Shown here piece by piece: positions 3,994 to 35,259 of a DNA stretch of 64,000 bases (position 1 is the first letter of the stretch; the number at the start of each line of letters is the position of its first letter). This DNA comes from Bordetella sp. LUAb4. GTDB lineage: Bacteria > Pseudomonadota > Gammaproteobacteria > Burkholderiales > Burkholderiaceae_B. The translations under genes were made by a program, and so were the position numbers. Below the pieces are notes generated by a model, which saw nothing but the letters and a program-made list of their open reading frames with translations, was not told the DNA's origin and did no database searches. The stretch spans positions 1 through 64,000 of the forward strand of contig NZ_JAHPZX010000004.1 in assembly GCF_021325795.1 (NCBI RefSeq), in the 5' to 3' direction.

Positions 3994-4078
3994 TTCGCTG
4001 CGGCGACAGGCTGCGGGGCTTTTTCCGTCATTAAAGAAAAGCAGTAGAAGAAATCCAGTAATAAAGCAGTAAACGGAA

Positions 4079-4109
4079 GGCCGTTCCCTTGATGGGGAAC
4101 GGCCTTTTT
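4079..4109 (+). terminator. Rho-independent terminator after ppsA
   Basis: GGCCGTTCCC (4079-4088) pairs perfectly with GGGAACGGCC (4095-4104) across a six-base loop and is followed by TTTTT. It lies 85 bp after the ppsA stop codon and ends the transcript before the accessory genes. Confidence 0.92.
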
Positions 4110-4276
4110 GTTTCGTTTCGCACTGCTATCACGCAACTGCCTTGCGCTCGCGTGCAGTCAAGTATCCGGCCGATGTGTCGGAATTTTCTTATGTCAGTGC
4201 CAATGCTTGCGTTAGAGAATTTGCGCCAAAGGAATCGCGCCAGCATTCCTATCCGACGAGGAGCTCCGAGTCCGCA

Positions 4277-4801
4277 ATGAATATTTTTCTCTTACGACGC
4301 TTCGCTGTTCTGTTTCTGACTGGATTAGTACTGCCGCTGGCTGGTTGCTCTGATCCCAATCAGAGTAATCCGTCCGAATTGGCTGGCTACAACTACACGG
4401 ACTCTTATATTGCAATATTTAGCGTCAGTAATGAAGGTCAAAGGCTCGAGGCGGGGGGCTCGAATATTTATCCGAAAAAACCAGGTGAACAACGTTCCGA
4501 AAGCGGGGGTGCGTGCTGTATCGGCGTTCCTGTTCATTGGCGGCCAGACATGCGGCTCGTCGTGAGGTGGCGACGAGATACTAAACCCTACGATGACGAC
4601 AGGAGCGGCGATCAATGGCTTGTCGCAATAACCAAGGTCCCCCCATATGGAACACATACCTACGGATTCTGGGTGCATTTTCTGCCCGACGACCGTATAC
4701 GTGTGCAGATCCAGGATGATCCTGCGATGCCTGTCAAACCCGCCGATGACGACCCTTACATAGTGCAGGGCGTAGTGGAACAAAAGGTAAATCCGAAATA
4801 G
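4277..4801 (+). CDS. DUF3304-like lipoprotein, probable immunity partner of the adjacent phospholipase effector
   Basis: A 174-residue predicted lipoprotein. The N-terminus MNIFLLRRF is followed by a hydrophobic stretch and the lipobox LAGC with Cys24, so it should be lipidated and face the periplasm. The body (YTDSYIAIFSVSN..., SGGACCIGVP, later YGFWVHFLPDDRIRVQI) resembles the DUF3304 family as I recall it; this was not searched. The ATG at 4277 is chosen because it gives the signal peptide; the frame is open upstream from 4142. It ends 12 bp before the Tle1-like gene, consistent with an operon. Known Tle1-type effectors are paired with periplasmic or lipoprotein immunity proteins, hence the inferred role. 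Base composition is AT-richer than the flanking housekeeping genes. Confidence 0.72.
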   Translation: MNIFLLRRFAVLFLTGLVLPLAGCSDPNQSNPSELAGYNYTDSYIAIFSVSNEGQRLEAGGSNIYPKKPGEQRSESGGACCIGVPVHWRPDMRLVVRWRRDTKPYDDDRSGDQWLVAITKVPPYGTHTYGFWVHFLPDDRIRVQIQDDPAMPVKPADDDPYIVQGVVEQKVNPK

Positions 4802-4813
4802 GAAGAGTGCGCT

Positions 4814-7108
4814 ATGAGCGTAATTAGTTGGCCCGACTCGTTCGACGAGCACGGGCGTTTGTCCGAGGGTGAACACTGCCGCGCGATTGGTAGAGGTATG
4901 CTGGATGAGAAGCCAGGCTGTCCTCAGATACTGCATGTAAACCTTTTCTTCGATGGAACCAATAATAATCTGCACTGGGATATAAAGAGCGCAGATAAGC
5001 CTACACACACTAACGTCGCTAGGCTGTATCTTGCTTGTCCTAGAGATGCGTCAAAAGGGGTGTTTAGTGATTATATTCCCGGCGTTGGTACCCCGTTCCC
5101 AGAAATCGGCGAAGACGAGTTCACGAGCCAGGGAAAGGCGTTCGCAAAAGGCTTCGGTATGCGTGTCGCCTGGGGCTACACGCGCGTTTTGAATGCTTTG
5201 TATACGGCGATCACCGAGCGCAAATTGCTGGAAGATAAAGATGCCCGCGAGCTATGTTCATTGATGGATAGCAACGCTTCAGCATCCAATCACGCACTCG
5301 GAATTCTCGATGAGGTGAAGACCGCAAGAAATTACTACGGCTACCAATTGGACGCTACGCTGGCCCGCCTGCATGCGGAGCTGTCGGTGAATCAAAAAAG
5401 AAATAGCGGCCCTGGCGGTGAGCTTTACCGGTCGATCCAAAAAGTCTGGATCAACGTTATCGGATTTTCACGTGGCGCAGCCAGCGCACGCGTATTTGTC
5501 AACCGTCTCATTAATAGGTGGGCACCGGGAGGTTTGATTGCCGGCGCCATCCGCTATGAGGTTAACTTTCTGGGTCTGATGGACACCGTGGCTTCTGTCG
5601 GTTTTCCCGACAGCACCACCGCTGCGTCCAATCTGGATGTGTTTGATGGCCACTGGGTATGGACAGCGAATGGCGCGCTTGATGTTCCACCATCAGTCAG
5701 GAAATGCGTGCATTTTTTTTCTATACACGAGCAGCGGATGAGTTTTCCGCTCGATTCGATTCGGGATGGAAATTCCTATCCTGGTAAGGAGCAGATCAGG
5801 AAGGAAGTGGCCTATCCCGGCGTGCATTCGGATGTGGGCGGCGGCTATCCGATTGGTGGGCAGGGCAAGTCCCGCGAGGGCGAAGGTAGCAAGCTCAGTC
5901 AAATCCCGCTGCACAATATGTATGTAGAAGCGCTGAAGGCGGGGGTGCCGCTATCCGTGAGAACCCAAAGAACACCCCTTTCCAAGATCGTCGAGCAGGA
6001 TTTCCGGATCTCTCCATCAGTCGTCCAAGCCTTCAACGATTGGCTTTCCACCGTCAATCAAACTCCCCTCGATAGCGTAGAAACCGCCCTCCAAATCGGC
6101 ATGAGCCAGTCTCTCGCCTGGCGCACACTGCGCGCGGATATCGGCAGTACTCACAACTACATTACGGCGCAGGAATTCTTCCGCTGCGCTCCCGAGGATC
6201 CGCTCACTCCCTACGCGATGGAAGTGGTTTTATCCAGCGATTCGCCGGAAGCGTCCAAATTGGAAGAGCTGAAGCATGAGAAAGACGTACTTTTGATGCA
6301 ACTGATGGAAGAAATCGCGACGGGTAAAGGGCACGATGCGCAGCAAAGTACCGCCGATGCGATCAAGAAAATCGATACGGAAATCCTCGAAGCGGCGGCA
6401 GGGCGGGGCAGTCGGCCCGGAGAAGGGCCGGACGACATTACCATCAACGACAAGACCGACCTTCTGGAAGCAGCGGAAGAATTCCGTCTGCTGCTTGCGT
6501 ACTTGCGTCCGCAACAGCGATCGAATCTGCAGGTGTACTGGGCCACGGTCCCCGCGGTCGCCGACGAACTGGGTCTGGATGCGCTGAAGAGGTACATCCA
6601 GAACGAGCCCACCCGCCGTTTCCTGACCGTGGCGCGAGCGGACGTTGGCACCCATCCAAGGCATGGATCGAAGACCGCGTGGATGATAGATAGCGATGTT
6701 GCAATGCAGTTGAGCGGCCTCATGGCCCCATACATGCCCATATGGGATTTTCTGCTGACGCCGCGCGAAGGGATGCTCCCGTTTCTGCTCAGAAACACGT
6801 CCGATCAGGCGGTTCGCGCGCTGTCTCTGGCGGTCGTTCGCCTGATGGATGATTATGTCCACGACAGCCGGGCCTGGTTCCGGGTGCCTTACTTTCACGA
6901 GTACGCACCCGGCGGCTTCGGCTGGCCTCGTACCTTTTTCGTCGGAAAGGATAATCGCGTACGTAATCTAGGCCTCGATGAAAATGCCAACGCGGTCGCC
7001 GACAAACGGGAAGGTGAAGAATACTTGGACCTCAGGCGATTCCTTGACGCTTCGAAAGCGCCGCATATCAACGTCGATCTCACTGGCCTGCAGGCCATGC
7101 GCTTTTAG
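4814..7108 (+). CDS. Tle1-like type VI secretion phospholipase effector (DUF2235)
   Basis: A 764-residue DUF2235 protein. The N-terminal part has LFFDGTNNN near residues 41-49, the catalytic nucleophile elbow GFSRGAA with Ser219, and PGVHSDVGGGY at residues 335-345, the expected catalytic Asp/His region. These motifs are typical of Tle1 phospholipase effectors, alpha/beta hydrolases delivered by the type VI secretion system that attack membrane lipids of rival cells. The C-terminal ~350 residues are charged and helical and have no motif I recognise; they may carry the delivery or membrane-binding part. There is no vgrG, PAAR or chaperone gene nearby, so it would be an orphan effector. It follows the DUF3304-like lipoprotein by 12 bp. 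Delivery by a type VI system is inference. Confidence 0.85.
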   Translation: MSVISWPDSFDEHGRLSEGEHCRAIGRGMLDEKPGCPQILHVNLFFDGTNNNLHWDIKSADKPTHTNVARLYLACPRDASKGVFSDYIPGVGTPFPEIGEDEFTSQGKAFAKGFGMRVAWGYTRVLNALYTAITERKLLEDKDARELCSLMDSNASASNHALGILDEVKTARNYYGYQLDATLARLHAELSVNQKRNSGPGGELYRSIQKVWINVIGFSRGAASARVFVNRLINRWAPGGLIAGAIRYEVNFLGLMDTVASVGFPDSTTAASNLDVFDGHWVWTANGALDVPPSVRKCVHFFSIHEQRMSFPLDSIRDGNSYPGKEQIRKEVAYPGVHSDVGGGYPIGGQGKSREGEGSKLSQIPLHNMYVEALKAGVPLSVRTQRTPLSKIVEQDFRISPSVVQAFNDWLSTVNQTPLDSVETALQIGMSQSLAWRTLRADIGSTHNYITAQEFFRCAPEDPLTPYAMEVVLSSDSPEASKLEELKHEKDVLLMQLMEEIATGKGHDAQQSTADAIKKIDTEILEAAAGRGSRPGEGPDDITINDKTDLLEAAEEFRLLLAYLRPQQRSNLQVYWATVPAVADELGLDALKRYIQNEPTRRFLTVARADVGTHPRHGSKTAWMIDSDVAMQLSGLMAPYMPIWDFLLTPREGMLPFLLRNTSDQAVRALSLAVVRLMDDYVHDSRAWFRVPYFHEYAPGGFGWPRTFFVGKDNRVRNLGLDENANAVADKREGEEYLDLRRFLDASKAPHINVDLTGLQAMRF

Positions 7109-7257: not shown

Positions 7258-8100
7258 TTATTTAGCCGTGGCTTCGCGCGTGATCAGCTCCAGCTTGCGC
7301 GCGACACCCCAGCGGTAGCCCGCCAGTGCGCCGCTCTGGCGCACCACGCGATGGCAGGGAATCACCAGCGCCAGCGGGTTGGTGGCGCAGGCGCGCGCCA
7401 CCGCGCGCACGGCGGACGGCGCGCCGATACGCTGCGCCAGTTCGGTATAGGTGATCGTCGTGCCGGGCGGGATGGCGCGCAGGGCTTGCCAGACGCGCTG
7501 CTGGAAGGCGGTGCCGCGTACGTCCAGCGGCAGGTCCAGCCCCTGCGCCGGGTTCTCGACGAAACCGACCACGGCCGCCACCCAGTGCTTGAATTCGTCG
7601 TCCGCGCCTTCCAGCGTGGCCTGCGGATAGCGGTCCTGCAGCTCCCGCACCAACACCGGAGCGTCGTCACCCAAGGCAATTTCACAGATACCCTTGGCGG
7701 TGGCCGCCACCAGCAGGGCACCCAGCGCGCACTGGGCCACGGCGAAGCGGATGTCCAGGCCGACGCCACCCCGGCGGCGTTCCGTGGGCGTCATGCCCAG
7801 CATGGCGGTGGTGTTTTCGTAGAAGCGGCCACTGGAATTGAAGCCGGCGTCGTACAGCGCTTGGGTAATGCTGGCGCCCTGGTCCAGTTCGCGCCGGGCC
7901 CGCGCCGCGCGCACGGCGGTGGCGTAGGCCTTGGGCGTAATGCCGGTCATGGACTTGAAGACGCGGTGGAAGTGGAAGCGGCTCAGGCCGGCTTGCTCGG
8001 CCAGGGCCGCCAGATCCGGCATATCGCCCGCCTCCATGGCGCGGCAGGCCTGTTCGACCAGGGCGGCATGGCGGGGGACGGGCAGGGCGTTGTCGTTCAT
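7258..8100 (-). CDS. ada: Ada-type regulator / O6-methylguanine-DNA methyltransferase lacking the zinc N-domain
   Basis: A 280-residue protein with an AraC-type helix-turn-helix region first (about residues 10-110, LSRFHFHRVFKSMTGITPKAY) and a methyltransferase domain second (about 115-275) with the acceptor motif IPCHRV, Cys249. It should remove methyl groups from O6-methylguanine by suicidal transfer to Cys249. Classical Ada (about 350 residues) starts with a zinc-binding domain whose Cys takes up a methyl group from phosphotriesters and turns the protein into an activator. That domain is absent, so the switch must differ or be lost. ATG 8100 has AAGGAG nine bases upstream. Confidence 0.9.
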   Translation of the reverse strand: MNDNALPVPRHAALVEQACRAMEAGDMPDLAALAEQAGLSRFHFHRVFKSMTGITPKAYATAVRAARARRELDQGASITQALYDAGFNSSGRFYENTTAMLGMTPTERRRGGVGLDIRFAVAQCALGALLVAATAKGICEIALGDDAPVLVRELQDRYPQATLEGADDEFKHWVAAVVGFVENPAQGLDLPLDVRGTAFQQRVWQALRAIPPGTTITYTELAQRIGAPSAVRAVARACATNPLALVIPCHRVVRQSGALAGYRWGVARKLELITREATAK

Positions 8101-8186
8101 GGTTGAACTCCTTGCGGGCGCATGATGTTGCGCGATGGACTCATCTTCGCAAATGGCGTCCGCCCCCGTCACTCCGCTTATTGCGT

Positions 8187-8921: not shown

Positions 8922-9232
8922 GATAGGTTTACGTGGTGGCAAGTGGCAAAAGAAGCGGTAAGGGAGCGGTAAAGGAGCGATCACCGGCGTGGAAAAAGGA
9001 ACGGCAAAGGGCAACGGCAAGAGCAACGGCAAAAGCAACGTAACAGCAAGGCAACCGAGCCGAAACGTCAGCCCATGTGGCGGTAACACTGCGCTTACCT
9101 TGATAGCCTTATCAAGTCAACGACATGATAATCCAGTCATTAGAACGAGGCCCACAGGGATTAGCCCAAAATCGTACAATCGCTGTCGACCATGCCTGCG
9201 CCTGGTCTCGATGTCTCGCGGAGAACATAACT
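8922..9232. other. Divergent intergenic region between the amidotransferase and nfeD
   Basis: No gene is seen. Around 8950-9045 the plus strand is purine-rich with a loose short repeat (GGCAACGGCAA and variants). The nfeD-proximal part holds a palindrome at 9099-9116 and an AT-rich TGATAAT at 9126-9132 that could be a -10 element. Confidence 0.5.
9099..9116. promoter_or_regulatory. Palindromic operator-like site upstream of nfeD
   Basis: CTTGATA (9099-9105) and TATCAAG (9110-9116) are exact inverted arms with a 4-base spacer, lying 117 bp before the nfeD ATG. It sits just upstream of the -10-like TGATAAT, a position suited to a transcription factor. The regulator is unknown. Confidence 0.45.
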
Positions 9233-9670
9233 ATGTGGATCTGGTTCGGATTGGCCGTCCTCGCGCTGATCGGGGAAATCGCCAACGGGACCACCTTTTA
9301 TCTATTGCTGGTGGCTGTTGGGCTGGCGGCGGGTGGTTTGGCCGCGCTAGCCGGTCTGAATATCGAAGCGCAGCTGTTGATCTGCTGCGGCATCGCGCTG
9401 GCGGGATTGTTCATCCTGCGGCGTACCGGGGTATTAAAAAAACGTGAAGTGGACGCCACGCGCAATGCCGATGTCAATCTGGACATCGGCGGCGTGTTGC
9501 GCGTCGACGCCTGGGAAGCCGGCGGCACCGCGCGCGCACAATATCGCGGCGCCAGTTGGCAAGTGGAGCTGGCGCCTGGTTACTCCCCCCAAAGCGGTGA
9601 ATTCGTGATCACGGCGGTACGCGGTAGCAGCTTGATCGTCGCGCCGCGTCCGCTCGTGGCGCGATCCTGA
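9233..9670 (+). CDS. NfeD family membrane protein
   Basis: A 145-residue short NfeD protein: two or three N-terminal membrane segments (WIWFGLAVLALIGEIANGTTFYLLLVAVGLAAGGLAAL and a further one) and a C-terminal OB-fold-like domain of about 70 residues (GVLRVDAWEAGGTARAQYRGASWQVEL). Short NfeD proteins act with SPFH/stomatin-type proteins in membrane quality control and lipid microdomains. The SPFH partner is encoded 44 bp downstream. ATG 9233 has GGAGAA at good spacing. Confidence 0.9.
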   Translation: MWIWFGLAVLALIGEIANGTTFYLLLVAVGLAAGGLAALAGLNIEAQLLICCGIALAGLFILRRTGVLKKREVDATRNADVNLDIGGVLRVDAWEAGGTARAQYRGASWQVELAPGYSPQSGEFVITAVRGSSLIVAPRPLVARS

Positions 9671-9714
9671 ACTCGATCCTGAACTCTCTGCCCGGTATTC
9701 ATAAGGTGCTGACC

Positions 9715-10638
9715 ATGCTTGATCCTTCCTCCATCGTCCTGATCGTCCTGGTGCTGCTGGTGATCCTCATCATCGTGCGGGCGATTGCCATCGTGCCCCA
9801 GCAACATGCCTGGGTGGTCGAGCGGTTAGGCAAGTTCGACCGAGTGCTGTCGCCAGGGGCGGGCTTCGTGATTCCGTTCGTCGAACGCGTGTCCTACAAG
9901 CATTCGCTCAAGGAAATTCCGCTGGACGTACCCAGCCAGGTTTGCATCACGCGGGACAACACGCAGTTGCAGGTCGACGGTGTGCTTTATTTCCAGGTCA
10001 CCGATCCGATGCGTGCCTCCTACGGTTCGTCCAACTATATTTCCGCCATCACCCAGTTGTCGCAGACGACGCTGCGTTCGGTCATCGGCAAGCTGGAATT
10101 GGACCGCACGTTCGAAGAGCGCGAATTCATCAACACCACCATCGTGGCGTCGCTGGATGAAGCGGCCTTGAACTGGGGCGTCAAGGTCTTGCGCTACGAG
10201 ATCAAGGATCTGACCCCGCCCAATGAAATCCTGCGCGCCATGCAGGCCCAGATTACCGCCGAACGGGAAAAACGCGCACTGATCGCGGCCTCCGAGGGCC
10301 GGCGCCAGGAGCAGATCAACATCGCCACCGGCGAGCGCGAAGCGGCGATCGCCCGCTCCGAAGGGGAAAAGCAGGCGCAGATCAACCAGGCGCAGGGCGA
10401 AGCGGCCGCGGTGCTGGCCATCGCCGAGGCCACGTCCAAGGCCATCACCCAGGTGGCCGAAGCCGTGCGCCAGCCCGGCGGCATGGAGGCTGTCAACCTG
10501 AAGGTGGCGGAGCGGTACGTGGAGGCGTTTGGCAACGTTGCCAAGCAGGGCAATACCTTGATCTTGCCGGCCAATGTGGCGGACATGGGCAGCATGGTCG
10601 CCACCGCCATGTCCATCGTCAAAGCGGCGCCCCGCTAG
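9715..10638 (+). CDS. qmcA: SPFH/stomatin-like membrane protease-associated protein
   Basis: A 307-residue QmcA-type SPFH protein. It has one N-terminal membrane segment (residues 3-25), the SPFH/Band 7 domain (about 27-190, VPQQHAWVVERLGKFDRVLSPG...), and a long charged coiled-coil region (about 190-250, EREKRALIAASEGRRQEQIN then Glu/Ala/Gln-rich heptads). Such proteins form membrane oligomers that modulate FtsH and organise lipid domains. Together with NfeD it forms a standard pair. ATG 9715 follows AAGGTG by 6 bases. The first cyclase-like gene starts only 24 bp downstream, so transcription may run on into the six-gene array. Confidence 0.93.
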   Translation: MLDPSSIVLIVLVLLVILIIVRAIAIVPQQHAWVVERLGKFDRVLSPGAGFVIPFVERVSYKHSLKEIPLDVPSQVCITRDNTQLQVDGVLYFQVTDPMRASYGSSNYISAITQLSQTTLRSVIGKLELDRTFEEREFINTTIVASLDEAALNWGVKVLRYEIKDLTPPNEILRAMQAQITAEREKRALIAASEGRRQEQINIATGEREAAIARSEGEKQAQINQAQGEAAAVLAIAEATSKAITQVAEAVRQPGGMEAVNLKVAERYVEAFGNVAKQGNTLILPANVADMGSMVATAMSIVKAAPR

Positions 10639-10662: not shown

Positions 10663-11811
10663 ATGCTCGGAGTCACCACGCTATTCATTGTGATGGGCTT
10701 GGCCAGCCTGCTCATGTTGGGCGTGCTGGGTTCGCTTACGCGCAGCGGAATCACTGGCGTCAAGGCTTGTATCCAGGCGTCCTTCACCACCGCGACAGGG
10801 ATATTGCTGATCGCCGCCCAGCCGGTCTTGCCGGCCATCGTCGGCGTCATCGTCGCCAATATGCTGATGGGCCTGGGCATGGTCATGTACTTCGTGGCGG
10901 TGCGGCAGTTCTTCGACCGGCCCCTGCCTGTGATCAACCTGGCCTTGGTGCTGTTGGTGGAGCTGATCGGGCTGGTGCTGCTGTGGTACGTCTGGCGCGA
11001 CTTCACCAGCCGCGTCGTGCTCGTGTCCGCCATCTATTCAGCCTTGGCGGCGGCTGTGGGGATTACCGTGCTGCGCGAGCGGCCGTATCACCGGCCGGCT
11101 TATCCCTATATGTTCACGGTGGGCGTGTCGATGTTCGTGGCGGTGGGCTACGCCGTGCGGGCGGTGGTCTATCTGCTGCGCATCGACAGCGTCGAATCGC
11201 TGGCCCAGTCTTCGCCCGTGCAGATCGCCTTTCTGGTAGTGGGCATCATGGCGCTGCCGGGCATGACATTGGCGATGATCCTGATGATCCACGATCGCAT
11301 GCTGTCCGAGCGCGAGACCGAGGTGAATACCGATTATCTGACTGGGGTGCTGTCGCGCAAGGCGTGGTGGCTGCTGGCGGAAAAAATCGTGGCCCGTGCC
11401 GCGCGCAATGACCAGAGGCTTTCCCTGCTGATGCTGGACATCGACCGCTTCAAGCAGATCAACGACACGTACGGCCACCTGCTGGGCGATGCGGTGCTGC
11501 AGCATTTCGGTACCACGGCCGTGGAAGTGCTACCCGACGAAGACATCGTGGGGCGGATTGGTGGCGAGGAGTTCGCCGTGCTTTTCCCGGACACCCGCAT
11601 CGATGCGGCGCTGTTCGCCAGCGACAAACTGCTGCATTTCGTGCGGGGATGCTCATGCAACTACGGCAGTTGGTCCATCGGCTACACGTTCAGTGGCGGC
11701 CTGGTGGAATGGGATGGGGAAGAAAGCGCGCAGGCGATGGCCCAGCGCGCCGATCAGGCCTTGTACGCCGCCAAGGATGGCGGCAGGGATCGCATCGTGG
11801 CACATCGCTAA
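10663..11811 (+). CDS. Membrane diguanylate cyclase, array member 1 (intact GGEEF, no I-site)
   Basis: A 382-residue protein. Residues 1 to about 205 form six or seven membrane segments with family motifs RSGITGVKA, VRQFF, WYVWRDF, RPAYPYMF and HDRML. Residues about 215-380 are a GGDEF domain. The active-site elements are canonical: DIDRFKQINDTYGH with GD following, and GGEEF at 300-304. It should make cyclic-di-GMP from two GTP. The inhibitory RxxD site that usually sits five residues before GGEEF is absent (PDED at that position), so product feedback through it is not expected. It is the only array member with an intact catalytic motif. It starts 24 bp after qmcA with a weak ribosome binding site, suggesting coupling. 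Confidence 0.92.
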   Translation: MLGVTTLFIVMGLASLLMLGVLGSLTRSGITGVKACIQASFTTATGILLIAAQPVLPAIVGVIVANMLMGLGMVMYFVAVRQFFDRPLPVINLALVLLVELIGLVLLWYVWRDFTSRVVLVSAIYSALAAAVGITVLRERPYHRPAYPYMFTVGVSMFVAVGYAVRAVVYLLRIDSVESLAQSSPVQIAFLVVGIMALPGMTLAMILMIHDRMLSERETEVNTDYLTGVLSRKAWWLLAEKIVARAARNDQRLSLLMLDIDRFKQINDTYGHLLGDAVLQHFGTTAVEVLPDEDIVGRIGGEEFAVLFPDTRIDAALFASDKLLHFVRGCSCNYGSWSIGYTFSGGLVEWDGEESAQAMAQRADQALYAAKDGGRDRIVAHR

Positions 11812-11835
11812 GCGATCTGGGGGAGAACTGGCGGA

Positions 11836-13002
11836 ATGATCAGCCCCACGATCATGATGATCATCGCGATGCTGGCCTGCATGCTCATGCTGGGGGCCAT
11901 GGGGACGCTGTCGCATACGGGCACGCCGGGGGTGCTGGCCTGCCTGCGCGCCACGGCGTTGACGGTCATTTCGATCTTTCTTCTTGCGTCGCAGCCCCTG
12001 CTGCCGCCGCTGATAGGCGTCGTGGTGGGCAATACCCTGGGGGGCGCCGCGACGACGCTGTACCTGGTTGCGGCATTGCAGTTTTTCGGCCGCCCCGTGC
12101 CCGCGCGGGGCCTGGTGGCTATCGTCCTGCTGGAGGCCGCCGGACTGGCGATCTTCTGGTACGTCTGGCGCGATTTCGCCATCAGGATCGTCATCATCTC
12201 GGTGATGCATTGCACATTGACGGCCGCGATTGCCGTCAACGCCTGGCGCTACCGCCCGCTGAACCGGCCTGCCTATCCCTATATGTTCATGCTGGGGATG
12301 GCGGCGCTGCAGGCAGTCGCCCATGCCGTGCGCGCGGTGGTTTACCTGCTGCGCCTGGACAATATCGACGCCTTGCACCAGATGTCGCCTCTTCACATGG
12401 TGTTCCTGTCGGTGGATCTGGTAACCCTGCCTGGCCTGACGCTGGGCATGATCATCATGGTGCATGACCGCATGCTGTCCGTCCGCGAGCTCGAGGTTGG
12501 CATGGACAGCTCGACCGGTGCGCTGTCGCGCAAGGCGTGGTGGCTGCTGGCGGAAAAAACCGTGGTCCGCGCCACCCGCAACAATCAGCGGTTCTGTGTG
12601 CTGGTGCTGGAGATCGATCGTTTCCTGCAGATCAACCAGACGTACGGGCGGCTGCTTGCGGAGGCGGTACTGCAGCATTTCGCCGCGCTGGCGGCCGACG
12701 TGCTGCGCGAAGAGGATCTCATCGGGCGCATCGACGGTGAGAAATTCGCCATCCTCTATCCCGATATCCGCCTGGATGCCGCGCACTCCGTCAGCGAAAA
12801 CCTGTTGCAGGCGGTGCGGGAAAACGCTTGTGCGTATGGCAATTGGTCCATCGGCTACACCTTCAGCGCCGGCCTGGTGCAATGGGACGGGCGGGAAAGC
12901 GCGCAAGAGGTGACTGAACGCGCCGAACAGGCGCTCTATCGTGCCAGCGCAGGCGGTCGTGATCGCATCGTGGCGCAACGACAACTCCAGGGGGCTGGAT
13001 AA
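11836..13002 (+). CDS. Membrane GGDEF-like protein, array member 2 (degenerate DGEKF, RxxD kept)
   Basis: A 388-residue paralogue of the preceding gene with the same layout: multi-pass N-terminus, then a GGDEF-like domain. The signature is DGEKF at residues 300-304 instead of GGEEF. Other catalytic positions are also altered: EIDRF instead of DIDRF, and YGRLLAE where the active enzyme has YGHLLGD. Cyclase activity is therefore very unlikely. The sequence REED at 291-294 matches the RxxD inhibitory site with the usual five-residue spacing, so it may bind cyclic-di-GMP as a receptor. It starts 24 bp after member 1 with GGGGGAGA upstream and ends 3 bp before member 3. Confidence 0.9.
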   Translation: MISPTIMMIIAMLACMLMLGAMGTLSHTGTPGVLACLRATALTVISIFLLASQPLLPPLIGVVVGNTLGGAATTLYLVAALQFFGRPVPARGLVAIVLLEAAGLAIFWYVWRDFAIRIVIISVMHCTLTAAIAVNAWRYRPLNRPAYPYMFMLGMAALQAVAHAVRAVVYLLRLDNIDALHQMSPLHMVFLSVDLVTLPGLTLGMIIMVHDRMLSVRELEVGMDSSTGALSRKAWWLLAEKTVVRATRNNQRFCVLVLEIDRFLQINQTYGRLLAEAVLQHFAALAADVLREEDLIGRIDGEKFAILYPDIRLDAAHSVSENLLQAVRENACAYGNWSIGYTFSAGLVQWDGRESAQEVTERAEQALYRASAGGRDRIVAQRQLQGAG

Positions 13003-13005
13003 GCC

Positions 13006-14166
13006 ATGCCGACACCCGCGCTTTTGTTGGCCTCTTCGGCCTTCGTCTGCCTGTTGATGATAGGGGTGCTGTGGTCGCTCGCGCGCAACAACATTCCGGG
13101 CGTCAAGGCCTGTGCGTTGTCCGCGCTGCTGTTCTGCGGTTCCGTCTTCATGCTGGCGGGGCAGCCCTACCTGCCCTGGTGGCTGGGCATCATCGTCGCC
13201 AACACCATGCTGGGCGCCGCCATGGTGATGTATTTTGTCGCGATGCGGCAGTTTTTCGGCCGCCCCGTGTCGGTCGTGGCCCTGATCGTCGTGATCGTGC
13301 TGGAAGTCGCGGGACTGATTGTGTTCTGGTGCGTCTGGCGCGATTTCGGTATTCGCATCGTGATCGTGTCCGGCCTGATCAGTGGCATGGCCTGCGCCAC
13401 GGCGGCGACCGTTGTGCGGTACCGGCCCCTGCACCGTCCGGCCTATCCCTACATGCTGGCGCTAAGCATGTTGATGCTGCTGGCGGTGATCCACGCCGTG
13501 CGCGTGACTTTCTATCTGCTGAACCTGGATCCTGTCCAGTCGGTAGGGCAGTCGTCGGTGTTTCAGACGATCTTTCTTTCGGTTGGGCTGTTGGCCAGGC
13601 CCGGGCTGATCCTGGCCATGATCCTGATGGCCTATGACCGCATGTTGAGCGAACGTGAGACCGAAGCCAACACCGATGCGCTGACGGGTGTTCTGTCGCG
13701 CAAGGCGTGGTGGCTGATGGCCGGAAAAACCGTAGCCGGTGCTGCCCGCAATGCCAAGCGGCTGTCCGTGTTGGTGCTCGATATCGACCGATTCGCGCAC
13801 GTCAACGAGACGTATGGCCCGCAGTTGGGCGATGCCGTACTGCGGCATTTCGCGGGACTGGCGACCAACGTCTTGCGGCAAGAGGATTTGATCGGACGCA
13901 TAGGCGGCGAAAAATTCGCCGTTCTTTTCCCTGACACCCCCATCGATGCCGCGCGGCTGGCCAGCGAGAAATTGCTGCAGGCGGTGCGCGGCGAAGCCTG
14001 CATCCACGGCAGTTGGTCCATCGGCTATGTATTCAGCGCCGGGCTGGTGCAGTGGGACGGCCAGGAAAGCGCGCAGGCCTTGGTGGAACGCGCCCATCTG
14101 GCGTTGGCGGCGGCCAAGCGCGGCGGGCGGGATCGTATCGTGACACAGGGCGAAGCCGAAGTTTGA
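13006..14166 (+). CDS. Membrane GGDEF-like protein, array member 3 (degenerate GGEKF, RxxD kept)
   Basis: A 386-residue paralogue starting MPTPALLL. The membrane part spans about residues 1-205 with ARNNIPGVKA, MRQFFGRP, WCVWRDF and RPAYPYM. The GGDEF-like domain has GGEKF at 300-304, with Lys where the second acidic residue should be, and FAHVNETYGPQLGD instead of FKQINDTYGHLLGD, so catalysis is doubtful. RQED at 291-294 is an RxxD site. The stop of member 2 is 3 bp upstream. Its start region is almost identical to that of member 5, pointing to duplication of a two-gene block. Confidence 0.9.
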   Translation: MPTPALLLASSAFVCLLMIGVLWSLARNNIPGVKACALSALLFCGSVFMLAGQPYLPWWLGIIVANTMLGAAMVMYFVAMRQFFGRPVSVVALIVVIVLEVAGLIVFWCVWRDFGIRIVIVSGLISGMACATAATVVRYRPLHRPAYPYMLALSMLMLLAVIHAVRVTFYLLNLDPVQSVGQSSVFQTIFLSVGLLARPGLILAMILMAYDRMLSERETEANTDALTGVLSRKAWWLMAGKTVAGAARNAKRLSVLVLDIDRFAHVNETYGPQLGDAVLRHFAGLATNVLRQEDLIGRIGGEKFAVLFPDTPIDAARLASEKLLQAVRGEACIHGSWSIGYVFSAGLVQWDGQESAQALVERAHLALAAAKRGGRDRIVTQGEAEV

Positions 14167-14183
14167 ACCGGAGCTAAGAAAAC

Positions 14184-14882
14184 ATGCCTACACCTACCCT
14201 ATGGCTCATCATCGCTGTATCCATCTGCACCTTGATGACGGGTGTATTGTTCTCCCTCTACCGCAGTGGTATCGCGGGTGTCAAGACCAGCGCCTGGGCG
14301 GACGCCGTCAGCTTGATCGGCGTCTCGTTCAATATGTCGATGCCGCTGAATCCGCTGATCCCGTGGCTGCCGTTCAATCTGTTGGGCAATACGCTGTTCG
14401 GTATCGGCATGATATTGACGTTCGCGGGCGTGCGGCAGTTCTTTCGTTTGCGCGTGCCGTGGGTGGCGTTGGGGGTGCTGGCGGTGGCGTATGTCGTGCC
14501 CTTGATCCTGCTCTGGTATGTTTGGCCGAACTGGCCTCTTCGCACGGCCATCGTTTCCGGGACGCGAGGCGTGGTGTCACTGATCATCGCGGCGACGGTG
14601 CTGCGGTATCGGCCCAGGGATCGCGGGGCGTTTCCCTATCTCTTCATGGCGGTGATGGCGATCGGCCTGGGCCTGACGCTGACGTGGCGCTCCGCGATGT
14701 ACCTGTTCGGTGTGGACACGATCCAGACGCTGCAAACGCCGTCCACGATCCAGAATATCTATTTCATCCTGGGCCTGATAACGTGGCCCGGCTCGCAACT
14801 TGGCGTCGTCATGATGATTCACGACCGTTTGCTGGAACAAGGCGGCAGGAAAGTCCGGCTGGGAAAGCGGCCGTTACCGTGA
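14184..14882 (+). CDS. Membrane sensor-domain protein without GGDEF, array member 4
   Basis: A 232-residue protein consisting only of the multi-pass domain shared by the array: SLYRSGIAGVK, VRQFF, WYVWPNW, RGAFPYLF, and the end motif MMIHDRLLEQ followed by a short basic tail. It stops where its paralogues enter the GGDEF domain. Only 49 bp separate its stop from the next start, so there is no hidden GGDEF remnant. It has GGAG 12 bases before its ATG. Its closest relative in the window is member 6. It could pair with its full-length neighbours as a sensing subunit or modulator, which is inference. Confidence 0.85.
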   Translation: MPTPTLWLIIAVSICTLMTGVLFSLYRSGIAGVKTSAWADAVSLIGVSFNMSMPLNPLIPWLPFNLLGNTLFGIGMILTFAGVRQFFRLRVPWVALGVLAVAYVVPLILLWYVWPNWPLRTAIVSGTRGVVSLIIAATVLRYRPRDRGAFPYLFMAVMAIGLGLTLTWRSAMYLFGVDTIQTLQTPSTIQNIYFILGLITWPGSQLGVVMMIHDRLLEQGGRKVRLGKRPLP

Positions 14883-14931
14883 CCGTGGTCGCAGCGTGGT
14901 CTTGCGTCAATCAAGGGGAGCTGGATAAGCC

Positions 14932-16095
14932 ATGCCGACACCCGCGCTATTGATGGCGGCCACGGCCGTGGTCGACCTGCTGATGATAGGGGTGCTGTGG
15001 TCGCTCGCGCGCAATAACATCCCGGGGGTCAAGGCCTGCGCCTTGTCCGCGGGGTTATCCAGCATCTCCATCTTCATGCTCGCGGGGCAGCCTTACCTGC
15101 CGGGGCTGATCGGCATCGTCTGCGCCAACACCATGCTGGGCGCCGCCATGGCGCTGTATCTCGTCGCGCTGTGCCAATTCTTCAACCGCCCCGTGCCGGC
15201 CGTGCCTCTGATCTTGGTCATCGCGCTGGAAATGATCGGACTGATATTGTTCTGGTACGCCTGGCGCGATCTCGGTATCCGCATCGTGATCGTGTCAGGC
15301 GTGCTCAGTGGCCTGGCCTGCGCTTCGGCGGCGGTCGTCCTGCACAATCGGCCGCTGCACCGCCCGGCCTATTCCTATGGGTTCACGCTGGGCGTGGCGA
15401 TGCTGGTGGCAGTGGTCCACGCGGTGCGTGCGACCACCTATCTGCTTGACCTGGACCCCATCGAGTCGATGGCGCAGTCGTCGATGTTCCAGACGGTGTT
15501 TTTGTCCGTCGGCCTGTTGGCCACGCCTGGGCTGATCCTGGCGATGATACTCATGGCATACGACCGCATGTTGAGCGAGCGCGAGACCGAAGCCAATACC
15601 GATGCCCTGACGGGCGTGCTGTCGCGCAAGGCCTGGTGGCTGCTGGCCCGGAAAACCGTTGCCGGCGCCACCCGTAACGCCAAACGCTTGTCCTTGCTGT
15701 TGCTCGACATCGACCGCTTCGCGCACGTCAACGAGACGTACGGCCCGCAGTTGGGCGATGCGGTGCTGCGGCATTTCGCGGCACTGGCAACCGATGTCCT
15801 GCGGGAAGAGGATTTGATCGGGCGCGTCGATGGCGAAAAGTTCGCCGTTCTCTTTCCCGATACGCCTATGGATATCGCGTTGCGGGCCAGCGATAAGTTG
15901 CTGCGCGCGGTGCGCGGCGAAGCATGCACCCACGGCAACTGGTCCATCGGCTACGCCTTCAGCGCCGGTCTGGTGCAATGGGATGGCCGGGAGAACGCGC
16001 AAGCCTTCATGGAACGCGCCCATCTGGCGCTGGCAGCCGCCAAGGAGGACGGACGAGATCGCATCGTGGCGCATTGCTCGAATTTGAACGATTGA
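14932..16095 (+). CDS. Membrane GGDEF-like protein, array member 5 (degenerate DGEKF, RxxD kept)
   Basis: A 387-residue paralogue starting MPTPALLM. The N-terminal membrane domain has ARNNIPGVKA, WYAWRDL and RPAYSYGF. The GGDEF-like domain has DGEKF at 300-304 and FAHVNETYGPQLGD, both unlike active cyclases, but keeps DIDRF and an RxxD site, REED, at 291-294. It most closely matches member 3. The leader (a G-run, CTGGATAAGCC, then ATGCCGACACCCGCGCT) is shared with member 3, including non-coding bases, which indicates a fairly recent duplication. Confidence 0.9.
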   Translation: MPTPALLMAATAVVDLLMIGVLWSLARNNIPGVKACALSAGLSSISIFMLAGQPYLPGLIGIVCANTMLGAAMALYLVALCQFFNRPVPAVPLILVIALEMIGLILFWYAWRDLGIRIVIVSGVLSGLACASAAVVLHNRPLHRPAYSYGFTLGVAMLVAVVHAVRATTYLLDLDPIESMAQSSMFQTVFLSVGLLATPGLILAMILMAYDRMLSERETEANTDALTGVLSRKAWWLLARKTVAGATRNAKRLSLLLLDIDRFAHVNETYGPQLGDAVLRHFAALATDVLREEDLIGRVDGEKFAVLFPDTPMDIALRASDKLLRAVRGEACTHGNWSIGYAFSAGLVQWDGRENAQAFMERAHLALAAAKEDGRDRIVAHCSNLND

Positions 16096-16112
16096 AACGG
16101 GGAGAGAAGATC

Positions 16113-16820
16113 GTGCCTACACCAACCTTGTGGCTCATCGTCGTACTAGTCATCTGCCTGCTGATGATGGGCGTGACGTTTTCGCTGTACCGCACTGGCA
16201 TCGCCGGCGTGAAGATGTGTGCCTGGGCCGCGGCGGTGTCTTGTGTCGGGGTGGCATTCAACACCGCGATACCCCTGTACCCGAACTTGCCGCTGGGACT
16301 CGTGGGAAGCACGTTGTTCGGCATCGGCATGCCGCTTTCCTTCGTCGGCCTGCGGCAATTCTTTGGCTTGAGCGTGCCTTGGCGGTCCCTGGTCGTGTTG
16401 ACGGTGGCGTATGTGACCGTGCTGGTCCTGTACTACTACGTCTGGCCGCAGTGGGCCACGCGCACGGCTACCGTATCGGCCCTGCGTGGCCTGATGTCGA
16501 TCCTGGTCGCCATTCTGGTATTGCGCCGCCGGCCCCGGCACCGCCCGGCTTATCCCTACTGGTTCACCGTGGTGATGGCGGCCGGGCTCGGCCTGATGCA
16601 CACGTGGCGGGCCAGCGTGTATTTCCTGCGGCTGGATTCGATCAATGCCTTGTCACAGGGGTCGACGGTGCAGAACATCTACTTCGTCGTGGGCCTGGTG
16701 ACGTTGCCTGGCGTGCTGCTCGGCATCATCATGATGATCCATGACCGGATGCTGGACCAACGCGCCAACAAGGCCCGCGTGGAGCGGCACAATGCGAGCC
16801 TGGACGCACGCGGCGGCTGA
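16113..16820 (+). CDS. Membrane sensor-domain protein without GGDEF, array member 6
   Basis: A 235-residue protein made only of the array's membrane domain, starting with GTG in MPTPTLWLI context. It has SLYRTGIAGVK, LRQFFGLSVPW, YYVWPQW, RPAYPYWF and MMIHDRMLDQ. The GTG at 16113 is chosen because the preceding GGGGAGAGAAG is a good ribosome binding site and the resulting N-terminus matches member 4. It ends 28 bp before the convergent smpB gene. With member 5 it mirrors the member 3-member 4 pair. Confidence 0.85.
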   Translation: MPTPTLWLIVVLVICLLMMGVTFSLYRTGIAGVKMCAWAAAVSCVGVAFNTAIPLYPNLPLGLVGSTLFGIGMPLSFVGLRQFFGLSVPWRSLVVLTVAYVTVLVLYYYVWPQWATRTATVSALRGLMSILVAILVLRRRPRHRPAYPYWFTVVMAAGLGLMHTWRASVYFLRLDSINALSQGSTVQNIYFVVGLVTLPGVLLGIIMMIHDRMLDQRANKARVERHNASLDARGG

Positions 16821-16848: not shown

Positions 16849-17316
16849 TCAGTCGTCGCGGCGGGCGTTACGCGTGTCGTGCTTCATCAAGCGTTCCTTC
16901 TCGCGCGCCCAGTCCTTGTCGCGCGAGGTGTCCCGCTTGTCGTGCAGCTTCTTGCCGCGCCCCAGCGCGAAGTCCAGCTTGATGCGGCCGTTCTTGTAGT
17001 GCAGATTCAGCGGCACCAGCGCGTAGCCGCGTTGCTCCACCTTGCCGATCAACTTGCTGATTTCCTCGGCCTTGAGCAGCAGTTTGCGCGTGCGCGTGGC
17101 GTCCGGATGGACGTGCGTGGAGGCGGTCGGCAAAGGGCTGACGTGCATGTTCAGGAGAAACAATTCGCCATTGCGCACGATGACGTGGCTGTCGGCCAAT
17201 TGCACCCGGTTGTCACGGATCGACTTGACCTCCCAGCCCTCCAGGACCAGGCCGGCTTCGTAGCGGTCCTCGATGAAGTACTCGTGGCTTGCTTTGCGAT
17301 TATCAATGATGCTCAT
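16849..17316 (-). CDS. smpB: SsrA-binding protein
   Basis: A 155-residue SmpB, the usual length. It binds transfer-messenger RNA and brings it to stalled ribosomes for trans-translation. The conserved start MSIIDNRKA-x-HEYFI, the core [11 protein letters not shown] and [12 protein letters not shown], and the basic C-terminal tail ([11 protein letters not shown] then [11 protein letters not shown]) are all present. ATG 17316 gives the family N-terminus; a GTG five codons upstream is the alternative. It is divergent from ratA across 68 bp. Confidence 0.97.
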
Positions 17317-17384
17317 GGGGGTCCGGCGCATGCCGGCGCGTATAGCCGGTAAAATCCTGTCATTCTAGCCATTTGCGATAGTCG

Positions 17385-17819
17385 ATGCACAAAGTCCAAA
17401 GAACCGTCCTCGTGCCATACAGCGACGCCCAGATGTTCGAGCTGGTGGCCGGGGTGGAAAAATACCCTGAATTCATGCCTTGGTGCGGCGGTGCCGAAGT
17501 TCGTTCCCGTGACGAGCATGGCATGGAGGCATCCATCGTGATCAGCTTCGCCGGACTGAAGCAGCGTTTCAGTACCCGGAACAAGCACGATTTTCCAAAA
17601 CAGATCGACCTGGAGCTGGTCGACGGGCCGTTTTCCATGCTGGTGGGCCATTGGTACTTCCAGGCACTGTCGCCGGATGCCTGCAAGGTGTTGTTCACCA
17701 TGGAATACGAGTTCTCCAACCGTGCGTTGGAGATGGTGGTGGGGCCGGTGTTCAACCGTATCGCCACCAGCTTCATCGACTCCTTCACCAAGCGGGCTCA
17801 GGTGGTTTACGGTGAATAA
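17385..17819 (+). CDS. ratA: RatA-like START/coenzyme Q-binding (COQ10 family) protein
   Basis: A 144-residue single-domain SRPBCC/START protein of the RatA-COQ10 type, with VPYSDAQMFELVAGVEKYPEFMPWC at the N-terminus and a C-terminal helix ending SFTKRAQVVYG. Members bind a hydrophobic ligand such as ubiquinone; in E. coli RatA has also been described as a ribosome association toxin, a role that remains debated. It sits next to smpB and overlaps rnfH, a common gene order in proteobacteria. Confidence 0.92.
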   Translation: MHKVQRTVLVPYSDAQMFELVAGVEKYPEFMPWCGGAEVRSRDEHGMEASIVISFAGLKQRFSTRNKHDFPKQIDLELVDGPFSMLVGHWYFQALSPDACKVLFTMEYEFSNRALEMVVGPVFNRIATSFIDSFTKRAQVVYGE

Positions 17820-32939: not shown

Positions 32940-35237
32940 CTAGCCCTTCACACGCACGATCTTCTGCACCTGCGGCACATGCCGTATCGCACGGATGACC
33001 TGCGCCAGATGCTTGCGGCTGTCTACCTGCACCGTCAGGTGCAAGGACACCGTGGAGACCGCGTCGTCATGCATGGTGACGTGCACGATATTGGCGTCCG
33101 TTGCCGTGATCTCGGCGGCCAGGCGGCCCAGTACGCCCCGTTCATTGCGCGTGACGATGTCCAGCCGCGTCGACAGGTGTTTGGCGGTCTGGGCATCCCA
33201 GGCCACATTGATCCAGCGTTCCGGCTCCCGCGTGCGCTGCCGCATGGCGACAGGACAATCGGCGACGTGCACGACCAGTCCGTGGCCCAGCCGCATGCCG
33301 GCGATGATGGCGTCGCCGGGCAGCGGGCCGCAGCAAGGCGCCAACTGCACTGCCTGGCCCTCGTTGCCCTGAATCAGGATGGGGGCGGCGCGCGCCGCGG
33401 TGATCTCATCGACGACGCCCGCCGTGGTGGCCACCAGGTCATGCTCGGGCGCGAAGCGGCGTGCGACCACGGCGGCCAGCCGCTTGCCCAGGCCGATATC
33501 GGCGAGGATCTCGTCGCGCGACGCGGCGCCGGTGCTGCGCGCCAGTTTCTCCCAACTGGGATCGCTGGTCGCCGGCAGTTGCAGATGCAATTCCTGCAAG
33601 GCCTGGCTCAGCAGGCGCTCGCCGAACACCACCGACTCGGCGTATTTGACCGTGCGCAGGTAGTGGCGGATTTCCGAGCGCGCACGGCCGGTGCGCACAT
33701 AGTTGAGCCACTGTGCATTGGGCCGTGATGCCGGCGAGGTGACGATTTCCACCGTGTCGCCGCTGGCCAATTCAGTGCGCAGAGGCACGAATTCATTGTT
33801 GACCTTGGCCGCCACCGCCTGATTGCCGATGTCGGTGTGGATCGCGTAAGCGAAGTCCACCGGCGTCGCCCCGCGCGGCAACGAGATGATCTTGCCGTGC
33901 GGCGTGAAGACATAGACCGCATCGGGGAACAGGTCGACCTTGACGTGCTCGAGAAACTCGCCCGAGTCGCTGTTCTGGCTCTGGATGTCCAGCAGCGACT
34001 GCAGCCATTGGTGGGTGCGCTTCTGCAGGTCGTTGAGCGATACGTCCGTGCCCTTGTACAGCCAGTGCGAGGCCACGCCTTCCTCGGCCACGTGATGCAT
34101 GTCGCGCGTGCGGAACTGGAATTCCACGGGCGTGCCGTAGGGGCCCACCAAGGTGGTGTGCAAGGACTGATAGCCGTTCACCTTGGGAATGGCGATATAG
34201 TCCTTGAACTTGCCGGGTACCGGCCGGTAGAGCTGATGCAGCGTGCCCAGCGCCAGGTAGCATTCCGGCAGGGTATGGACGATGACGCGGAAGCCGTAGA
34301 TATCCAGTACTTCGGAAAACGTCTTCTTCTGATCGACCATCTTGCGATAGATGCCGTACAGCGTTTTCTCGCGGCCGGTCACTTCGGCTTCGATCCCTGC
34401 CGCCGGCAGCGCCGCGCGCACGGCGTCGGCAATCTTGGTGATCACTTCGCGCCGGTTGCCGCGCGCGGCCAGCACCGCCTTGTACAGCACCTGGTAGCGG
34501 TTCGGGTACATGGCGGCGAAGCACAGATCCTGCAATTCGCGGAATAGCAGGTTCAGGCCCAGCCGATGGGCGATGGGCGCGTAGATGTCCAGCGTTTCGC
34601 GGGCGATGCGGCGGCGCTTTTCGGGCGTCACCGCGTCCAGCGTGCGCATATTGTGGACACGATCCGCCAGCTTGATCAGGATGACGCGCACATCGCGCGC
34701 CATCGCCAGCAGCATCTTGCGGAAGCTCTCGGCCTGCTGTTCGGCCTTGGTGGCGAAGTCCAGCCGGTCCAGCTTGGACAGGCCGTCGACCAATTCCGCC
34801 ACTTCAGGGTTGAAGCGTTCGGCCAGTTCCGCCTTGGTGACGCCCTGGTCTTCGATGACGTCATGCAGCAGCGCCGCCGACAGCGCATTGGCGTCGAGCT
34901 TCCAGCCGGCACAGATTTCCGTGACGGCGATGGGGTGCGAGATATAAGGTGAACCGCTGGCGCGGAACTGCCCCAAATGGGCTTGATCGGCGAAGCGGTA
35001 GGCTTCGCGCACGCGCTCGACGTCTTTCTTTTCCAGATAGCCGCTGATGATTTCAGTCAGCGGGGCCAGCGACGCAACGGGAGACGCCGGTGCATCGACT
35101 GCCTCCTGGGCAGCCGCCTCGGCGGGCGAGGGCGGGGTCTTGCGATTTTTTTTACCAGGCCTGCGACCCAGGCGGGAACCCGCGCGTAGCGCGGCGAGCA
35201 GGCCGGTAGAAGCGTACTTCAGTCCGGGAAATGCCAT
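32940..35237 (-). CDS. spoT: Bifunctional (p)ppGpp synthetase/hydrolase
   Basis: A 765-residue RelA/SpoT homologue. Domains in order: HD hydrolase with LLHDVIEDQ near residues 124-132 (intact HD and ED), synthetase with REKTLYGIYRKM and DIYGFRVIVHT and GYQSLHTTL, TGS (VYVFTPHGKIISLPRGATPVDFAYAIHT) and a C-terminal ACT domain. The intact HD motif marks it as SpoT/Rel-like, able to break down the alarmone. ATG 35237 is preceded by GGGGGGTG; a GTG at 35246 is an alternative. It lies 22 bp after rpoZ and forms the gmk-rpoZ-spoT cluster, where all three genes link to guanine nucleotides. Confidence 0.96.
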   Translation of the reverse strand: MAFPGLKYASTGLLAALRAGSRLGRRPGKKNRKTPPSPAEAAAQEAVDAPASPVASLAPLTEIISGYLEKKDVERVREAYRFADQAHLGQFRASGSPYISHPIAVTEICAGWKLDANALSAALLHDVIEDQGVTKAELAERFNPEVAELVDGLSKLDRLDFATKAEQQAESFRKMLLAMARDVRVILIKLADRVHNMRTLDAVTPEKRRRIARETLDIYAPIAHRLGLNLLFRELQDLCFAAMYPNRYQVLYKAVLAARGNRREVITKIADAVRAALPAAGIEAEVTGREKTLYGIYRKMVDQKKTFSEVLDIYGFRVIVHTLPECYLALGTLHQLYRPVPGKFKDYIAIPKVNGYQSLHTTLVGPYGTPVEFQFRTRDMHHVAEEGVASHWLYKGTDVSLNDLQKRTHQWLQSLLDIQSQNSDSGEFLEHVKVDLFPDAVYVFTPHGKIISLPRGATPVDFAYAIHTDIGNQAVAAKVNNEFVPLRTELASGDTVEIVTSPASRPNAQWLNYVRTGRARSEIRHYLRTVKYAESVVFGERLLSQALQELHLQLPATSDPSWEKLARSTGAASRDEILADIGLGKRLAAVVARRFAPEHDLVATTAGVVDEITAARAAPILIQGNEGQAVQLAPCCGPLPGDAIIAGMRLGHGLVVHVADCPVAMRQRTREPERWINVAWDAQTAKHLSTRLDIVTRNERGVLGRLAAEITATDANIVHVTMHDDAVSTVSLHLTVQVDSRKHLAQVIRAIRHVPQVQKIVRVKG

Positions 35238-35259
35238 GCGAGCCACCCCCCGGATGAGA

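Follow-up and report, generated by a model that had tools for sequence, protein, structure and literature searches.

A tandem array of membrane GGDEF paralogues in Bordetella sp. LUAb4 with one predicted intact diguanylate cyclase and conserved degenerate copies

Introduction

This study concerns six paralogous genes, which lie in tandem on the + strand at positions 10663-16820 of a 64,000-nucleotide stretch of contig NZ_JAHPZX010000004.1 of Bordetella sp. LUAb4 (assembly GCF_021325795.1; the whole stretch is hereafter called the window). All six encode the same membrane domain, which in four of them is followed by a GGDEF domain, the domain of diguanylate cyclases (DGCs) that synthesise cyclic di-GMP (c-di-GMP). 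The roles of inactive GGDEF proteins are often unclear, and the array offers predicted active, inactive and domain-less descendants of one enzyme at one locus, for which single-copy relatives serve as a reference for comparison. If the copies act together, they would be a compact natural case of catalytic and regulatory sites split between paralogues. An earlier prediction for this locus (hereafter the original prediction) had proposed a signalling module made by repeated duplication, with one enzyme and several receptors or modulators. This interpretation is partly supported by the analyses reported here, namely in the duplication, the gene order, the single intact member in this genome and the selection on non-catalytic copies.

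The gene array

The genes follow one another in the order A-B-C-s1-D-s2 with intergenic gaps of 24, 3, 17, 49 and 17 bp. Open reading frames (ORFs) and a protein alignment confirmed the original description of six adjacent same-strand genes with gaps of 3-49 bp and one common membrane domain, which spans approximately 215 residues and has 33 invariant columns across all six proteins. The membrane motifs that had been quoted for the whole set are exact in A and vary elsewhere (GVKT and HDRLL in s1, CQFF in D, YDRML in C and D). Gene A (10663-11811, +) encodes a membrane domain with seven predicted helices and a GGDEF domain in which all catalytic residues checked are present, with the GGEEF motif at 11560-11574 (+) and Pro in place of the Arg of the inhibitory site (I-site; codon 11533-11535). 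Genes B (11836-13002, +), C (13006-14166, +) and D (14932-16095, +) have the same architecture and retain the RxxD motif of the primary I-site. B has the motif DGEKF and the substitutions D327E, K332L, D344E, E371K and K442S, C has GGEKF with K332A and E371K, and D, a paralogue of C, has DGEKF with K332A and E371K (these residues carry what we presume to be PleD numbers, assigned from the motif pattern). Genes s1 (14184-14882, +) and s2 (16113-16820, +) encode the membrane domain alone and form class S; s2 has a GTG start, and a longer frame opens at 15924.

Pfam GGDEF (PF00990) matched A, B, C and D above the cut-off (E-values 2e-32 to 1e-25) and gave no match in s1 or s2, in agreement with the prediction of four genes with a GGDEF-type domain and two that end before it. 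A is 55-60% identical to B, C and D (E < 1e-139), and matches s2 at E 1.5e-46 and s1 at E 1.0e-35. A genome-wide search with A returned 21 matches at E 0.001. Six of them are the array genes (E 1e-35 or better), and almost all of the other 15 are limited to the GGDEF domain; one of these non-array matches (C14; 27% identity, query 40-378) extends into membrane sequence. Chance similarity or an ORF artefact was ruled out by the E-values of 1e-35 or lower together with the arrays found in further species.

At the DNA level repeats run in register along the array. C and D have in common a 300-nt repeat (80%), and its beginning 48 bp upstream of both start codons fits a duplication of a C-s unit. 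By eye, GGAG- or GGGG-like stretches precede B, C, s1, D and s2, and less clearly A. The array contains 13 terminator-like sites against 6.9 (standard deviation 3.1) in shuffled sequences, all within genes by their coordinates, and 3 promoter-like sites against 2.1; neither count is informative. The close spacing and common direction of the genes suggest a single transcript.

Taxonomic distribution and phylogeny

Arrays of three to six genes were found in four of the six genomes of the genus that were examined. Besides the order given above, the arrays read A-C-s1-s2 in Achromobacter sp. HZ34 (G005), A-B-D-s in A. aloeverae AVA-1 (G001) and A-B-s in a fourth genome (G002), so that membrane-only copies are present in all four; the other two members (G003 and G004) carry a single gene. 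The A copy of HZ34 (L025 8001-9149) reads HDSML for HDRML, the sole R212 change among 14 aligned array proteins. Wider searches scored the best 7 to 15 candidates per genome (11 for the family, 7 for the order). The domain was detected at E 1e-20 in 75 of 268 genomes of the family, and at least two adjacent copies were listed only in the four genomes named, all of this genus; in the order, 399 genomes were searched and 18 gave a match at E 1e-10, and among the 7 candidates scored in each no adjacent copies were listed outside the genus.

As a non-array reference we used 48 relatives from 35 genomes (of 36 matched, with G023 left out), a set that leaves out genomes matched only in the 268-genome family search. 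In 23 of these 35 genomes a single intact DGC of the array architecture occupies the slot nfeD-qmcA-[one DGC]-smpB-ratA.

A membrane-domain tree (29 rows; support as bootstrap/Shimodaira-Hasegawa-like approximate likelihood ratio test) recovered the clades A (100/99), B (92/92), C/D (100/99) and S (100/100). B, C/D and S together were split from A (96/94) with no firm branching order among the three, and the two single-copy genus members branched outside the array genes altogether (100/100). A concordant picture came from the GGDEF tree (23 rows), with B joining C/D (99/96), an A clade (91/88) and all array genes together (99/98); the trees included 10 of the 21 syntenic single copies from outside the genus. 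Since each clade spans species, the classes A, B, C/D and S predate, on these trees, the four species. Provided that the tree is correct, B and D were later lost in HZ34 and the C/D class in G002. All four arrays lie in the same slot. The predicted repeated duplication is supported, as a local one from one gene, and the gene order is conserved. On these comparisons, the array originated by repeated tandem duplication from one syntenic membrane DGC gene, in one lineage.

Catalytic and inhibitory-site residues

The motifs reported in the original prediction for residue 300 were found as described, residues 300-304 being GGEEF in A, DGEKF in B, GGEKF in C and DGEKF in D. In A the residues D327, K332, N335, D344, GG(D/E)EF, K442 and R446 are all present; K332 and E371 are lost in B, C and D, and D327, D344 and K442 are additionally changed in B. 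The claim of one intact cyclase, which had been based on the motif, is upheld for this genome by K332 as well, and in B also by D327, D344 and K442, but may not extend to G002, whose A gene lost K332.

Of 19 catalytic or I-site positions, 18 never vary across the 48 non-array relatives; the remaining one, R359, is R in 47 and G in one. The single-copy DGCs of the slot have the catalytic site and RxxD intact without exception (23/23). R359 is replaced by P in all four A genes, and D362 is D in LUAb4 and HZ34, N in AVA-1 and E in G002; the remaining 17 positions are retained in the A genes of LUAb4, HZ34 and AVA-1. The seven GGDEF copies of the four genomes that are predicted to be catalytically dead have all lost K332 and E371, with further changes at G368 (six copies), D327 (three) and D344 (two). 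Six of the seven retain R359 and D362, the exception being D of AVA-1, and the primary I-site reads REED, RQED and REED in B, C and D, respectively. The exceptional D copy (L058 6530-7678) has P at R359, like the A genes, which may reflect gene conversion from A or a coincidental recurrence. N335, R366 and R446 are retained in 7/7 dead copies and E370 in 6/7. At the secondary I-site, R390 is R in 23/23 syntenic single copies, N, K and K in B, C and D, and K in A.

Across 27 positions (R359 and the 26 that do not vary in the relatives) the A clade keeps R359 in 0/4 and D362 in 2/4 genes, and every other position in at least 3/4. The most-changed pair is thus the I-site pair, which a random draw of two of the 27 would match 1 time in 351, a figure that treats positions as independent in genes that share ancestry. 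New here, as read from the aligned residues, is that the A genes have lost the product-inhibition Arg while six of seven dead copies keep RxxD. We infer that the best reading of this reciprocal pattern is that catalysis and product sensing were divided among the paralogues.

Two other readings address the dead domains themselves. The main rival is that they are independent c-di-GMP effectors, which, like PelD or PopA, bind the nucleotide via RxxD and target other partners instead of pairing with A; the cluster would then merely co-express a maker and its readers. The retention of RxxD in 6/7 dead copies and the strong constraint on the dead GGDEF domain of C (see below) speak for it; it leaves the membrane-only S copies and the loss of the I-site Arg of A (P in 4/4) unexplained, and R390 is not retained in B, C and D, so that we consider it rather unlikely. 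Alternatively, the domains may have been neofunctionalised and, in place of c-di-GMP, bind a protein or another nucleotide (e.g. GTP or ppGpp). Such a change would agree with N335, R366, R446 and nearly always E370 being kept when K332 and E371 were lost, and structures of PleD with ppGpp and pppGpp exist, judging by their titles (9g85, 9g86). Nothing points positively to a new site, and with RxxD kept in 6/7 copies this explanation appears very unlikely.

Selective constraint

Ratios of non-synonymous to synonymous substitution rates (dN/dS) were calculated by the Nei-Gojobori method with 95% codon bootstrap intervals, not by a likelihood model. Between LUAb4 and HZ34 the whole-gene values were 0.157 (0.101-0.227) for A, 0.210 (0.150-0.282) for C, 0.219 (0.129-0.344) for s1 and 0.174 (0.108-0.257) for s2. 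The upper 95% bounds were below 0.69 in all 13 pairs and at most 0.35 for these four genes. B and D compared as whole genes with AVA-1 or G002 gave 0.38-0.41 (upper bounds 0.49-0.52), and s2 gave 0.355 (upper bound 0.511) with G002 and 0.481 (upper bound 0.685) with AVA-1. Neighbouring genes compared between LUAb4 and HZ34 gave 0.081 (nfeD), 0.033 (qmcA), 0.015 (smpB), 0.026 (ratA), and 0.088 and 0.054 for the next two genes.

No internal stops, frameshifts or broken lengths were found in the 17 array genes. Frames are open in all eight degenerate or membrane-only copies of the other array genomes, and the TGA in s1 of HZ34 is its end stop. The outcome that the original prediction had named as its refutation, an array confined to this genome with broken degenerate copies, was not found; arrays occur in four species with open frames and dN/dS below 1. 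The same open frames and ratios give no support to pseudogenes. With dN/dS well below 1 in every pair tested, the dead copies are kept, and are by this measure under constraint, which is looser for B and D.

A neutral or slowly decaying expansion, in which duplicates without a selected function are heading for loss, would account for the variable copy number (3-6), the lack of a B or D orthologue in HZ34 and of a C/D-class gene in G002, the lost RxxD in D of AVA-1, the higher ratios of B and D (0.38-0.41) and of s2 against AVA-1 (0.48), and the lower constraint on the array than on qmcA (0.033) and smpB (0.015). It is hard to reconcile with 17 genes free of stops and frameshifts, with upper dN/dS bounds below 0.69 and with classes that predate the four species, and we regard it as very unlikely.

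For C between LUAb4 and HZ34 the dead GGDEF part gave 0.130 (0.071-0.215) and the membrane part 0.299 (0.202-0.442), and for C against D the membrane and GGDEF parts gave 0.43 vs 0.17. These differences (0.30 vs 0.13 and 0.43 vs 0.17), and the presence in all four array genomes of S copies that are purely membrane domain, would suit a diversification of signals driven mainly by the membrane domain, in which copies were retained for seven-helix domains that sense different cues or titrate one, and the GGDEF remnants are merely dimerisation parts. The faster membrane part is, however, found also in A (LUAb4-HZ34, 0.21 vs 0.10) and in a single-copy pair (0.29 vs 0.21), and B between LUAb4 and AVA-1 shows the opposite direction (0.39 vs 0.42); the dead GGDEF domain of C is more constrained than a passive remnant needs and no ligand is known, which leaves signal diversification an unlikely explanation.

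Membrane domain and structure models

No Pfam family exceeded its cut-off over the membrane part, including MASE1 (which we take to be the membrane domain of the Escherichia coli protein CdgI), MASE2 and 7TMR-DISM, the latter reaching E 0.51 in s1. A sequence search of the PDB with the membrane domain found no match up to E 1. The AlphaFold2 model of A, which was built on 14 sequences, has seven long helices followed by the GGDEF domain (best model: predicted local distance difference test (pLDDT) 80.9, predicted template modelling score (pTM) 0.58; other four models: pLDDT 61.5-64.3). That of s2 (pLDDT 88.8, pTM 0.82; none of the five models below 83.5) has seven helices, the last one extended into a stalk. 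In fold searches the A model matched GGDEF structures (best 3ign, E 1e-13), and the s2 model matched no PDB fold at E 0.001, its best match being to seven-helix receptors at E 0.033. In s2 the positive charges are carried by the C-terminus and by the loops that precede helices 2, 4 and 6, a distribution that fits an N-terminus out, C-terminus in topology. Among the insignificant fold matches of s2 was a flotillin-associated rhodopsin (9r23; E 0.14, TM 0.53), a seven-helix protein tied to SPFH proteins by its name, which is possibly coincidence. By eye, the membrane part of the last helix of s2 contains no Lys, and by that sign s2 is not a rhodopsin.

Genomic context

Upstream of the array lie an nfeD-like gene (9233-9670, +; Pfam NfeD PF01957, E 7.9e-7), which is conserved in relatives and has an uncertain start, a longer frame opening at 9125, and a qmcA-like SPFH/Band_7 gene (9706-10638, +; Band_7 E 1.5e-35, Band_7_C E 3.8e-28), which ends 24 bp before gene A. 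The qmcA-like neighbour is 87-99% identical in the 23 syntenic and the three array-bearing relatives. Downstream, the array ends 28 bp before the convergent smpB (16849-17331, -; Pfam SmpB, E 3.9e-56), whose position is conserved, and the second conserved neighbour is a gene of the Polyketide_cyc family (17385-17819, +; PF03364, E 2.1e-35) that we take to be ratA. For the remaining 25 of the 48 non-array relatives no qmcA or smpB match was present in the flank examined. In one of the 23 syntenic genomes (G094, 4061-6515 of its locus) nfeD and qmcA lie approximately 1.1 kb apart. A mobile or plasmid-borne array was rejected, as one 47-base match was found in 1 of 72,556 plasmid records and the array lies between the same genes in all four array genomes.

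Further genes of the window include one at 7258-8172 (-) that encodes an AraC-type helix-turn-helix fused to a 6-O-methylguanine DNA methyltransferase domain (Ada-like) and is a neighbour in several relatives too. A 764-residue ORF at 4814-7108 (+) matches the catalytic domain of Tle1-like phospholipases of the type VI secretion system (E 7e-29) and sits in the stretch of lowest GC content of the window (0.524 for 4001-6000). Another c-di-GMP gene at 50806-52665 (-) encodes a 619-residue EAL protein that also matches CBS and, in part, GGDEF, and a RelA/SpoT-type gene by Pfam lies at 32940-35246 (-).

A proposed mechanism

The array itself is confirmed. It is conserved across four genomes, is under selection and was found in a single lineage, with an ordinary origin and an unusual outcome. 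For its function we tentatively favour, at somewhat less than an even chance, one uninhibited cyclase with inactive paralogues that bind c-di-GMP and pair with it, i.e. tandem duplicates that divide the catalytic site and the I-site between them. That the inactive paralogues bind c-di-GMP and pair with the cyclase is a probable inference. A would make c-di-GMP without product inhibition through a primary I-site of its own. B, C and D would make none, and would bind c-di-GMP via RxxD and pair with A and with one another via the seven-helix domain and stalk. GGDEF domains dimerise to synthesise c-di-GMP, with one GTP bound by each half (PMC5635695), and for this reason a dead partner dimerised with A would lower synthesis. 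By occupying half of the obligate dimer, B, C and D could lower or tune the output of A, more so when they are c-di-GMP-bound. The membrane-only proteins s1 and s2 may pair solely via the membrane domain, and in this way contribute signal input or mask it. That the array adjoins an SPFH/NfeD gene pair suggests, without proof, that the complex is located in an SPFH/NfeD membrane domain.

Several observations weigh against the proposed division of labour. The A gene of G002 has F331L and K332Q and three more changes at positions where none of the 48 relatives varies, and so 'one enzyme' may not hold throughout. The D copy of AVA-1 lacks RxxD. Near-invariant positions kept in at least six of the seven dead copies number 15 of 27, so that the retention of RxxD is not exceptional by itself. 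R390 of the secondary I-site is kept in 1/7 dead copies and 1/4 A genes and is absent from B, C and D, so that the dead copies may have an incomplete c-di-GMP site. The array of HZ34 has no B or D orthologue, which marks single copies as dispensable. Finally, the arrays form one clade, and the reciprocal residue pattern therefore represents one history, not four independent cases.

In its fullest form the proposal would be product inhibition in trans, in which an I-site-less cyclase is fed back on by dead RxxD paralogues within a mixed seven-helix assembly, with membrane-only paralogues as input subunits and possibly confined to a membrane domain of the SPFH/NfeD type. This complete scheme is doubtful, and we offer it as a conjecture.

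Comparison with known systems

One known counterpart is the single-copy DGC of the same slot and family, which is alike in orthologous origin, architecture and neighbours, and differs in being present once and in having both its catalytic site and its RxxD intact. PelD and PopA are inactive GGDEF receptors that bind c-di-GMP by RxxD. Their dead, RxxD-bearing GGDEF domains resemble those of B, C and D and are joined to other N-terminal parts, and to our knowledge neither is a tandem paralogue of an active cyclase.

The original prediction knew of no described system with such a layout. This claim has to be qualified, since a tandem array of GGDEF paralogues has already been described (PMC12943098), although that array is predicted to be intact throughout; an inactive GGDEF protein, CdgI, has been described as a single protein (PMC5635695). 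In Leptospira interrogans the genes LIC_11125-LIC_11131 are seven tandem PAS-GGDEF paralogues with a copy number that varies between serovars; all seven are predicted to be catalytically intact with an allosteric site, and LIC_11127 and LIC_11131 were inactive in tests (PMC12943098). The likeness lies in DGC paralogues in tandem at one locus; the Leptospira proteins have a PAS sensor and the passages of that paper on these genes mention no GGDEF-less members, whereas here one of six genes is intact. Among the papers listed by our literature searches for tandem DGC arrays only the Leptospira case fitted, and none of those listed concerned this gene set. No publication joining diguanylate cyclases with SPFH and NfeD was retrieved, and none on a link between flotillin and diguanylate cyclases was apparent by title and the start of the abstract.

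The E. coli protein CdgI, a lone inactive GGDEF protein whose active site is degenerate and whose I-site is intact, binds c-di-GMP; its GGDEF domain contacts other GGDEF domains, and the authors suggest that c-di-GMP could modulate these contacts (PMC5635695). As far as that account goes, CdgI resembles B, C and D in its degenerate active site with RxxD and in an N-terminal domain common with active DGCs, but it is a lone gene, whereas here dead, active and membrane-only paralogues are clustered and the active copy is without the I-site Arg. The known kind is that of CdgI-like inactive GGDEF proteins, and what is new is their place in a paralogue array.

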